Below the pieces are notes generated by a model. The model was not told where the DNA came from. It made no database searches and saw only the letters and a program-made list of their open reading frames with translations. A stretch of DNA of 64,000 bases from assembly GCF_932294415.1 (NCBI RefSeq), contig NC_065538.1:41112843-41176842 (forward strand), given 5' to 3'. The stretch comes from Quercus robur (Eukaryota > Streptophyta > Magnoliopsida > Fagales > Fagaceae). Shown here piece by piece: positions 59,783-64,000 of this stretch. A program made the position numbers and the translations under genes. The number at the start of each line of letters is the position of its first letter. The first letter of the stretch is position 1.

Positions 59783-61812
59783 ATGAGACCCCCTCGAGGT
59801 AACAAACAAAACCCATAAATCCTATCTTCTTCTTATTTTCCCTGTACTTTTTCTTTTCTGAGAAAGCTTATACATTTGCCTAAAACAACAAAAAAATGTT
59901 AGACCCAGTTTGTCTGTTATTACGCTTTCTTATTAACATGAGGGCTATATAACGAATGAGTTTGTGAAAACAGAGTCATGGGCAAAAAAACCCAAATATT
60001 GATTTATATTTTTAATTTTTTTAGATTTTCATGCGTTGTACAAAGTAAGAAACGTGTTGAGATACACAGTACTAATAATAAAAAAGAAAAAAGAATCAAT
60101 TCATTAGATGATTTTTGTTTTGACAACTATGGCTGAGAGGATGGCATTAAAATTCTTTTTCTTTAACATAATTTATATATATTATTGTCCATTTTTTCAT
60201 CAGAAAAAGGGAAAGCTTTCATTTTTTAACATCTTGATTGCTTTTAGTTTTCACCATATACGAGGCATTGTTAACTTTGAGCTGGATTTTGGGTGATCTT
60301 GTGCAGGTCGTGGTGGTGGTGGTGGTGGATTCAGGGGTAGGAGTGATGGAGGGAGAGGTAGAGGCAGAGGTGGTGGAGGTGGAGGTGGAAGAGGCTTTGA
60401 TAAAGGTGGTGCCATGAGAGGCCGTGGTGGTGGACGTGGTGGCCGAGGTGGTGGAAGAGGCCGGGGAGGAGGTAGAGGTGGAATGAAAGGTGGAAGCAAG
60501 GTTATCGTTGAGCCTCATAGACATGAAGGAGTATTCATTGCAAAGGGTAAAGAAGATGCTATTATTACTAAGAATTTGGTCCCTGGTGAAGCTGTCTACA
60601 ATGAGAAAAGGATATCTCTGCAGGTCAATTTAGTGCAACACTTATCTTTTCATGTGCTTTTGATTAATTAATTATTCTTGTGATCATCAAATGTTTGACT
60701 TGCTGCAATTATATTGTAAGTTTGCTTGTTTTTCAAAGCATAAAGCGTTTTCTTAATAGGTTTGCAGTTACATCAATGTAGTGCAGAATTTCTTGTATAT
60801 GCGTTTTTGAGAATATCAAGTGCTTAGTAATAATTAAGTTTTGTATAAGTAATGGGGCTAGTGTTTTATTGAGTATAACTCTTAGTTTTAACTAACCTTT
60901 TCTAGGAAAGGTGGGCTGGAACTTAAATATATGCTGGGTGATGCTAAGAATATGCAGAAAGCACCATATTTGCACAGAAAGAAAGAAAATAAGTTGGTTC
61001 AATGTCAACCCCTGGCTGTGTGAAAGGAAATTTATATAATGTACTTGAAAAAGTGTTTTGTCTGTAATTTATTGGTTAATCATGAAATCATACCTTGCAG
61101 CATCTCTAGACTATTGCTTTTATGCCAACCATTAAATTTTGTGTTCATAGTTGTTAAATATTTGTTAGTATAGATCTATGGACTTTAAGAATTTTACTTT
61201 CCTTCACAGAATGAAGACGGAACAAAAGTTGAATACAGGATTTGGAACCCATTTCGTTCAAAGTTGGCTGCTGCCATTCTTGGTGGTATTGATGAAATAT
61301 GGATTGTGAGTTTCTCCTTGATTTCTTAATTTTATTTCACTTTTGTGCTTCAATGATATAATGATTTTAAATCTGTCCATAACCAAACTCTTTTCTCTAC
61401 GTTTTAATATCTAAAATGAAGAAACCCGGTGCTCGGGTTCTCTATCTTGGGGCTGCTTCTGGAACCACCGTCTCTCATGTGTCTGACATTGTTGGCCCTG
61501 TAAGTGATCTATATAAAATAGTAGTATATTTTTATTTATTGGGTCTCTTAGATTGCCATCAAAATAATTCTTTCTCAGAAGAAAAAGTTTATTAATTGAA
61601 AAGACTTGATTAGAACTTTTGCTCCTTACCTGTAGTCTGGAGTTGTTTATGCTGTGGAGTTTTCTCATAGAAGTGGTAGAGACTTGGTTAACATGGCAAA
61701 GAAGCGTACAAATGTTATCCCAATCATTGAAGATGCTAGACATCCTTCAAAGTACCGAATGTTGGTAGGCATGGTGGATGTGATATTTTCTGATGTTGCT
61801 CAACCAGATCAG
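59783..61812 (+). CDS. FIB: Fibrillarin, rRNA 2'-O-methyltransferase, first five exons (runs off the window)
   Basis: Exons are 59783-59798, 60307-60623, 61210-61305, 61422-61499 and 61636-61812, all with GT-AG introns and consistent phases; 228 residues of the usual ~310 are present. Fibrillarin is the catalytic subunit of box C/D snoRNPs, methylating rRNA ribose in the nucleolus with S-adenosylmethionine. The N-terminus MRPPRGRGGG and the Gly/Arg-rich (GAR) domain (about 6-66) are followed by [41 protein letters not shown] (exon 3), the SAM-binding [20 protein letters not shown] (exon 4) and [20 protein letters not shown] with SDVAQPDQ (exon 5). The 16-base first exon is supported by reading frame and the family's MRPPR start. 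The remaining C-terminal exon(s) must lie beyond 64000, making intron 5 longer than 2.1 kb. Intron 5 hosts snoRNA copies. Confidence 0.93.
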
Positions 61813-62399
61813 GTTTATTCATCACTTCCTTGCATGTTTCATGTTCAATTCGTCCTCTAATATTCAAATTGATAAAAGGGGATAGCACCATAATGTTAAA
61901 GTGGTGGCAAGAGCACTTTCTTTAGTAATGCATGTGAAATTTCCCATGGACATGCATCAGTGCATGTGCTTTGTTCCTTGTTTCTGTCATCTATTTTTTT
62001 TGCTGGGTTCTATGTTTCTGTTAATAACTACTGCTCTAGTTCCTTGATCAACTATCTTTTCAATTGCTTTTCATGCATTTAAGAAAAAATTAAATTTTGT
62101 CTTAGCAGAAGATGGTCCTTATTTCTATATGAATTTTAGATTGTAGTTCTTTATAGTATACTGCATGAGTCCCTGTGTACTTGAGTTTCTTCTCTTTTTG
62201 ATAGAGTTTCTATTGATTTATATATATATATATATATGTATGTATGGTTCTTGTTTGGAACTTTTTTAGAACTACTTTATATGCTGTTTGGGGTTGGGAT
62301 GCATGTGTTTTGTATTTGTTTTTTCTGTCTTCATTCTTTAATGGGGGATCTCAATCATACTAACTTCTTAATGGGACCTTGGGAGATCTTATTTGAATG

Positions 62400-62480
62400 G
62401 TATTTTTTTATTACTAAGTTATACACACATCCATGAGACTTGAACCCACATCCTCACCTCCACCTTTATTTATTGGTATC
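62400..62480 (-). mobile_element. Possible SINE fragment in fibrillarin intron 5
   Basis: The complement of GAGACTTGAACCCACATCCTC (about 62436-62456) resembles a box B in its tRNA-derived context, and a T-rich start lies at about 62403. No target duplication was found, so it may be a truncated copy. Confidence 0.3.
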
Positions 62481-62607
62481 CCAATGATACTTCCTTTTTG
62501 TTCTCTTCTGGAAAATTAAAAAGGCATTTAAGAAACCTAAGCTTTATGATTGTGTTACAATTGCTATTTTCATTTTTCAAATTTTGTATCTTGTTTTATA
62601 TTATGAT

Positions 62608-62676
62608 GCATATGATGAGTTACTCGGATTCCCCTTCAAGACATAATAGGGTGATGTCAGCTCGAGTTTCTGATGC
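62608..62676 (+). ncRNA. Intronic box C/D snoRNA (U60-like) in fibrillarin intron 5
   Basis: Box C ATGATGA (62612-62618) and box D CTGA (62670-62673) are bracketed by a short terminal stem (GCA with TGC). A C'-like GTGATGT is at 62651-62657. After box C, the guide segment TCGGATTCCCCTT (about 62623-62635) is complementary over 13 bases to the conserved 25S rRNA sequence AAGGGGAATCCGA (recalled, not searched), and the +5 rule from a D'-like CAAG/AAGA points at a G. Arabidopsis fibrillarin genes are known to carry U60 in intron 5, and this is also intron 5. It is presumably released by processing of the spliced intron. Confidence 0.8.
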
Positions 62677-62771
62677 TGTTATGAAGTCTTTTTTATTTAT
62701 TGTTATCATATCTGCTCAAATATATAGCTTTTTCTTTTTCTTTTTCTTTTTTTAATCTAGTATACTATCAT

Positions 62772-62847
62772 GAGCAAATGATGAGTTACTTGGCCATTCC
62801 CCTTCATGATGATGTTATGGGTGATGCAAGCTCAAGTTCAGATGCTC
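62772..62847 (+). ncRNA. Second, degenerate copy of the box C/D snoRNA
   Basis: It is about 164 bases after the first copy. Box C ATGATGA (62778-62784) is intact and the terminal stem is perfect over 5 bp (GAGCA with TGCTC). The box D position reads CAGA (62839-62842) instead of CTGA, and the rRNA match falls to nine bases (ATTCCCCTT). It also shares GTTACT, ATTCCCCTTCA, GGGTGATG and AGCTC.AGTT with the first copy. It is a tandem duplicate that probably no longer works, unless it has a changed target. Confidence 0.65.
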
Positions 62848-62876
62848 CTATAATTTTTTTTTTTTTTTTTGATAGA

Positions 62877-62927
<51 letters not shown>

Positions 62928-63039
62928 TCTCATTTTATGTTCTTATATTTTAATTGCATGTTTCTTACTGGGCTCAAAGATGCATTTATGGCTAAATTTC
63001 CTTGTACTAGTCAAACTCAGTGGTGTCAGAGTCCACATC

Positions 63040-63081
63040 GTTTATATAATAGGAAAATGCGTTTATATAATAGGAAAATGC
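63040..63081. repeat. Perfect tandem duplication of 21 bases
   Basis: Units 63040-63060 and 63061-63081 are identical (start GTTTATATAATAGG). The second runs into a MITE-like copy that starts near 63079. Confidence 0.85.
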
Positions 63082-63258
63082 TAAAACTACTACCAATTTT
63101 ACTACAAATTGCTTACAAACTGAAACATGACAGTGATTGTGATTGGTGCTACATCGACCACATATGAAATATAATTTTTTAGTTACTTTTTGGTCTTGTG
63201 CTAAAAAGTTGAGACATCAATTTGTAGGGTGTAAAATTTGTGGTAGCCCTAACATCAC
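63079..63258. mobile_element. MITE-like repeat in fibrillarin intron 5
   Basis: The left end TGCTAAAACTACTACCAATT and right end AAATTTGTGGTAGCCCTAAC are inverted relatives. A GATTGGTG core matches the copies near 55933 and 58772. Confidence 0.5.
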
Positions 63259-63603
63259 TAAATATATAACTAATGGGTAAACTTAGTACAACTTCTTAGT
63301 GATGTAGCTTAGGTTCTATAATTAAATTGAACGTTTGGCCTTGGAAGCTGATACACAAGGATGTGCATTGGCCAGTAAGGCAAATGGTTAGATTTAATTG
63401 GGGAACCTAGAGTAAAACACCTAAGGAACTATACATAAGTTTTGCCCATAAATTCTTGTGTGTCTTCTCATTTCACATTGGTAGCCAACTCCATTGTATT
63501 GAATTGTTGTTAGCATACTATTTTTTTCTCATTTCCCTGTATGGTTCTTTTTTCTGAATCTGATATTATGAATACTTTATGTTTGTGGTTCTTTTTCTTG
63601 TTC

Positions 63604-63650
63604 GAGAGTAATTAAATGATTGTCACTTTAAAAAAGAGAGTTATTAAATG
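63604..63650 (+). mobile_element. Micro-insertion in fibrillarin intron 5: 17 bases in a 15-base repeat
   Basis: GAGAGTAATTAAATG (63604-63618) and GAGAGTTATTAAATG (63636-63650) differ at one base. The insert is ATTGTCACTTT plus A6. It fits the same pattern as the other micro-retroposons but is older or coincidental. Confidence 0.4.
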
Positions 63651-64000
63651 CTTTTCTTATGTCTATATATTAACTATCAGAGTTGTGTTTTGTTCTCTCT
63701 TATATCTTGTAAATTTAATGCTAAAAATCAAAGTTTGATGCGGGATGCGGAAGCGTCAAGAAGTAGAATATGTCTACTTCTAGAAAACAAGAAACAAAAC
63801 ACGTTTGCTTCTGAAAATAACCTCGAATCCACGAGGGTTCCTTGAATCCACAAGGAAAAAGGGTTTGGAATCCACTAAGAAATAGAAAGAAGAAAGTCTG
63901 AATTTTGTTGATTGAATAATTGTTAAAAAACGTGTACAGACTTAGGGACCTTTTTAAGGGCTTCGTAAAATTTGACAGACAAGAAAATATATTCTAAAAT
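63651..64000. other. Right edge, possible LTR-like sequence
   Basis: No gene. The words GCGGAAGCGTC, CCACGAGGGTTCC and TCCACAAGGAAAAAGG are of a kind I associate with Copia LTR-type repeats, but the sequence is cut off by the window edge and cannot be bounded. Fibrillarin intron 5 should continue through it. Confidence 0.3.

Follow-up and report, generated by a model that had tools for sequence, protein, structure and literature searches.

The window analysed here is a stretch of 64,000 nt of Quercus robur DNA, which carries on its forward strand the first five exons of a fibrillarin gene, called gene W below. These exons (59783–59798, 60307–60623, 61210–61305, 61422–61499 and 61636–61812, +) are separated by GT-AG introns 1–4 and, when spliced, give 228 amino acids that are open throughout and match the Pfam family Fibrillarin (PF01269, E 4e-76). 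The donor of intron 5 is at 61813, and the intron fills the remainder of the window (61813–64000, +) and extends beyond its end. By tblastn, two more fibrillarin exons are found downstream in L022, with exon 6 at L022:4463 (about window position 66120), which gives intron 5 a length of about 4.3 kb. Intron 5 also contains a perfect 21-nt tandem duplication (63039–63080). At window positions 63278–63443, there is a weak match to the MIR2606 precursor family on both strands (38.3 and 35.7 bits, cut-off 139.7), a pattern such as an inverted-repeat element would give.

Two sequences of the box C/D snoRNA family U60 (snoR60, Rfam RF00339) lie after fibrillarin exon 5 and are for that reason assigned to intron 5. 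A cmscan of the whole 64-kb window returned them as its sole matches above the gathering score of any Rfam family (40 bits for snoR60), in agreement with the earlier note, made from the letters of the DNA, that had described a duplicated box C/D snoRNA in this intron. Copy 1 (62606–62677, +; 79.0 bits, E 9.6e-16) is an ordinary U60. Its box C (ATGATGA, 62612–62618) and box D (CTGA, 62670–62673) were read as motifs, GTGATG at 62651–62656 is taken for box C′, and box D′ is CAAG (62637–62640), in the register that places the Arabidopsis target G2125 at +5. The guide TCGGATTCCCCTT (62624–62636) forms 13 pairs with 25S AAGGGGAATCCGA, whose complement is exact in the rRNA-like sequences L017 and L008. 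Compared with the Rfam consensus, none of the seven private changes of copy 1 falls in positions classed as functional (P 0.019). The earlier description of an intact first copy with a 13-base complement to 25S rRNA agrees with these motif coordinates and with the 13 exact pairs.

Copy 2, taken with its 5-bp stem, spans 62772–62847 (+) and carries an old variant of box D; the Rfam match covers 62772–62846 (54.5 bits, E 5.7e-9). The terminal stem GAGCA/TGCTC (62772–62776/62843–62847) is complete, box C (ATGATGA, 62778–62784) was read as a motif, and GTGATG at 62821–62826 is again taken for box C′. Nine guide bases, ATTCCCCTT (62796–62804), pair around the target base of copy 1 and are followed by a box D′ CATG (62805–62808), with ATGA one base further on (62806–62809). 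At the position of box D, located by the Rfam alignment and by motif reading, stands CAGA (62839–62842). The features reported earlier for this copy (box C, a perfect 5-bp stem, CAGA at box D and nine matching bases) are thus found as described. Copy 2 exceeds the family cut-off, has a box C of the RUGAUGA form and a terminal stem, and differs by one base from CUGA at box D. Because box D reads CAGA instead of CUGA, copy 2 is classed as a U60 family sequence and a divergent paralogue, a label that makes no claim to a proven working C/D snoRNA. The bodies of the two copies agree in 59 of their 69 aligned bases; their alignment score was reached by none of 500 shuffles, and that of the 20 nt upstream by two of 500. 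Two small insertions are private to copy 2, a CC adjoining the guide core and an ATG adjoining D′.

Arabidopsis carries U60.1F and U60.2F within introns of FIB1 and FIB2, which bears out the earlier remark that a guide RNA within the gene of its own methyltransferase is known there, and in fib1-1, where U60.1F is not expressed, the U60 target 25S G2125 is less methylated (PMC8053127). The equivalent of G2125 is opposite the fifth base upstream of CAAG in copy 1 and of CATG in copy 2. It was placed by counting along an assumed plant 25S stretch; one of the 18 offsets tried puts the published base at 10/10 listed methylation sites, and there G2125 is the third G of AAGGGG. In the Quercus assembly, AAGGGGAATCCGACTGTTTAATTAAAACAAAGC is found once, in the LSU-like sequence L017 (G000:C5:50115525-50118557). 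This sequence holds the sole exact match of a 33-base 25S pattern in the assembly, is unlike rRNA in its first part and is probably a solitary rDNA fragment. The earlier note had proposed aligning the guide with the 25S rRNA of this species; in the plant's own LSU-like L017, copy 1 has an exact 13-base complement and copy 2 has nine pairs. Counted from D′, these nine occupy +1 to +9, and four pairs flank the target base (+5) on each side; within the enzyme, no more than 10 pairs are formed (PMC8053127). The CC insertion is just outside the nine paired bases and separates off the outer four pairs of copy 1. To speak of a lost guide match in copy 2, as the earlier note did, was therefore an overstatement, since the nine bases adjoin D′ and are centred on the same target base. 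Nothing longer than this match, at the usual site, was found for copy 2 in L017:861-2771. A 10-base match, which starts inside C′ and ends 4 bases before box D, occurs in a foreign LSU, L008, and is absent from L017; 18S coverage for the pairing of copy 2 was 228 nt of L008. L008 (JAESUE010000410.1) is a contig of a Pseudomonadales bacterial bin carrying eukaryotic SSU, 5.8S and LSU rRNA, which is contamination. The pattern scan of other genome contigs gave eight stretches, six of which were scanned with Rfam: L008 with eukaryotic rDNA, L004 and L005 with archaeal LSU, and three with no match. In viral contigs, the rRNA and guide patterns had 0 matches each.

A search of the plant's own genome for snoR60 (785.7 Mb in 42 contigs; 61 scored of 139,939 first-look candidates) gave nine matches, all above the cut-off of 40 bits. 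All nine are downstream of a fibrillarin exon ending in DVAQPDQ with the next exon beyond (tblastn), that is, in the same intron of five genes: gene W of the window with two copies, genes A and B on contig 38 with three and two, and genes X and Y on contig 41 with one each. The five are the fibrillarin genes that hold U60 matches, and those without U60 are outside this count. Copy B1 of gene B is altered at box C, in the guide and at box D. Copy B2 (L019:3775-3840; G000:C38:13691274-13691339) has intact boxes C and D and is missing part of the guide and D′; it is possibly a snoRNA deprived of its target, judging from its letters. In the guide region, the copy of gene Y carries three changes and that of gene X one, and both are missing part of the C′ region. 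Genes X and Y (L020 and L021, G000:C41) are about 14 kb apart, and a comparison over 345 nt showed no synonymous difference between them. In gene A, copy A3 (L018:3322-3392; G000:C38:13731821-13731891; 82.3 bits) has an intact 13-base guide, a box C AUGACGA and a CAGA box D. Common descent of this CAGA with that of copy 2 was considered and dropped, as A3 aligns with the first-type copies and its box C is AUGACGA; it is probably an independent change. A tree of the nine copies with their flanks resolved only A1 with A2 (support 94) and X with Y (100), other supports being 22–60.

The history of copy 2 is illuminated by the intron of gene A, where a permissive scan (E up to 10) revealed three further sub-threshold snoR60 stretches (30.2, 28.0 and 16.9 bits), the weakest of which (E 4.9) is unconvincing by itself. 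Each begins 153–155 nt after a good copy, as copy 2 begins 166 nt after copy 1, and local alignments to copy 2 scored 79, 65 and 57, the maxima of 60 shuffles each being 36, 33 and 42. The alignment of the W and A units extends over copy 1, the spacer and copy 2. At the stem, copy 2 and its three counterparts have TCATGAGC in common. A1′ and A2′ read GTTCAGA as copy 2 does (with a T missing, and CAGA), and A3′ reads GTTAAAA. Their boxes C are ATGAAGA, GTGAAGA and ATAAAGA, with 3, 4 and 2 changes in the nine guide bases. Since two of the three counterparts have CAGA and all three have the altered stem side, the CAGA-bearing pair is probably older than the divergence of genes W and A, the other possibility being an exchange between the two introns. 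The synonymous divergence Ks of W and A is 0.365 (95% range 0.23–0.59, 345 nt); those of W–B (0.27) and W–X (0.25) have overlapping ranges, so that these values do not rank the gene splits in time. No second U60 copy was found in gene B, nor by local alignment in X or Y, where the profile search extended to E 0.01.

Whether copy 2 has been kept or is decaying was approached through its substitutions. In a hand alignment, set by eye and with columns skipped where any counterpart has a gap, copy 2 has acquired since the W/A split a single private substitution, immediately ahead of box C, and the two small insertions; box C, guide core, C′ and box D are unchanged. The spacer, in which W is 68, 69 and 75% identical to the three A units, leads to an expectation of 10.9–14.4 substitutions (P 2e-4 to 9e-6), and half of Ks over 72 sites gives a concordant figure of about 13. 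Automated alignments give weaker support: over 3 settings, 3 counterparts and 4 outgroups, the copy 2 branch has 1–5 changes and the counterpart branch 8–13, so that it is shorter in 36/36 comparisons, and P<0.05 was reached in only 8 of these 36, which overlap in data. Against the Rfam consensus, one of the 12 private changes of copy 2 falls within the 31 of 72 positions that we ourselves classed as functional (P 0.012), a figure to be read with the bias towards few changes at functional positions that comes from finding copy 2 by similarity. The strength of the statistical case for retention thus varies with the alignment, and the view that selection has kept copy 2 is supported but not settled. 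Gene conversion from copy 1 is another possible way for copy 2 to have stayed similar; speaking against it, copy 2 does not have copy 1's own letters around C′.

The meaning of CAGA can be considered in terms of the kink-turn, with positions named as in PMC5689011. In our reading of that scheme, the U of CUGA is 3n, opposite the U of box C at 3b; CAGA would thus retain the GA of the tandem sheared pairs and turn 3b:3n into U:A. The U4 kink-turn has a G:C pair at 3b:3n. U4 kink-turns depend on the same 15.5K protein and have 3b:3n pairs other than the U:U that is strongly conserved in human box C/D RNAs, and all exchanged variants described, U:A not being among them, folded once L7Ae was added (PMC5689011). 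In the list given for Entamoeba, CAGA appears at D′ only (PMC3542256). A CAGA box D therefore looks unusual and possibly weak, from which it does not follow that copy 2 is dead.

Taken together, these observations favour, with slightly better than even confidence, an old second U60 isoform that is more likely kept than decaying and has the same target nucleotide as copy 1. Confidence is held down because the box C and guide of the counterparts are altered, not wholly lost, and because most automated tests are non-significant singly. The strongest competitor, itself given a sizeable chance a little short of even, is a pseudogene: CAGA would have ended snoRNP assembly long ago, drift would have been slow by chance, and only copy 1 would yield U60. 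The departure of CAGA from the box D consensus and the two small insertions fit such a history, as does the frequency of U60 loss in this genome, seen in the altered box C and guide of the gene A counterparts and in the damaged copies of B and Y. Harder to reconcile with it are the absence of any change of copy 2's own in box C, guide core and C′ since gene A split off (hand alignment), and the single functional-site change among 12 noted above. Recent decay, which the earlier note had suggested, was rejected as the leading reading, CAGA being common to copy 2 and two of the three gene A counterparts and own changes since the split being few. The same note had also suggested a change of target, and this is very improbable. 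The D′-like ATGA (62806–62809), identical to CUGA at three of four bases where copy 1 has AAGA in that register, would move the register one base, onto the G preceding G2125, or some other RNA would be paired. Copy 1 and the Rfam consensus nevertheless also have an NNGA in the shifted register, the longest copy 2 match in L017:861-2771 has nine bases and lies at the usual site, centred on the same base, and the 10-base match of L008 is absent from L017.

For the favoured reading, that of an old and kept isoform, the following course may be proposed. The two U60 genes of fibrillarin intron 5 are most likely co-transcribed with their host and then excised from the intron, copy 1 acting as the standard U60 that would guide 2′-O-methylation of the G corresponding to G2125 of Arabidopsis 25S rRNA. 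The CAGA box D and GAGCA/TGCTC stem of copy 2 would have arisen before the W/A split, and with its box C, C′, stem and nine D′-adjacent guide bases copy 2 most likely retains the ability to assemble, if perhaps weakly, and to act redundantly on the target nucleotide of copy 1. Expression, snoRNP assembly and methylation are here what we infer for the U60 copies. The stricter proposal, that copy 2 functions as a U60 isoform with CAGA as its non-canonical box D, that the conserved U:U of the kink-turn has become a Watson–Crick U:A and that selection has kept the copy since before the two fibrillarin genes split, is tentative and appreciably less than evenly probable. If copy 2 does work, box D would tolerate CAGA in a living snoRNP, perhaps aided by the complete terminal stem. 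An expressed copy 2 would be a test of the strictness of box D, and a silent one would illustrate the slow pace at which an intronic snoRNA copy may degenerate. One genome here offers a natural series of intact U60 copies, a seemingly kept box D variant and degraded counterparts, all located within introns of genes encoding the methyltransferase that U60 serves.

Duplicated plant snoRNAs as such are well known. Barneche et al. (2001), to go by the title, reportedly dealt with extensive duplications giving snoRNA isoforms and new predicted sites. Most plant snoRNA families comprise several paralogues, clustered or spread (PMC5122169, whose main text does not mention U60 or snoR60). The human and fungal U60 (SNORD60) has only name and class in common with the plant one; its target differs, since it appears in a table next to 26S Gm2751 and yeast snR48, where no plant counterpart is named (PMC2780460), and the Fib U60s have been called plant-specific (PMC8351944). 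Among the open-access literature matches listed, no title or abstract opening mentions tandem U60 copies within an intron of fibrillarin. In Arabidopsis, U60 is hosted by intron 5. The Quercus copies resemble Arabidopsis U60.1F and U60.2F in belonging to the same family by Rfam score, in lying in a fibrillarin intron and in having a guide to the same 25S stretch (PMC8053127); they differ in that two copies share one intron, the second with CAGA, whereas a single U60 is named for each Arabidopsis FIB gene.
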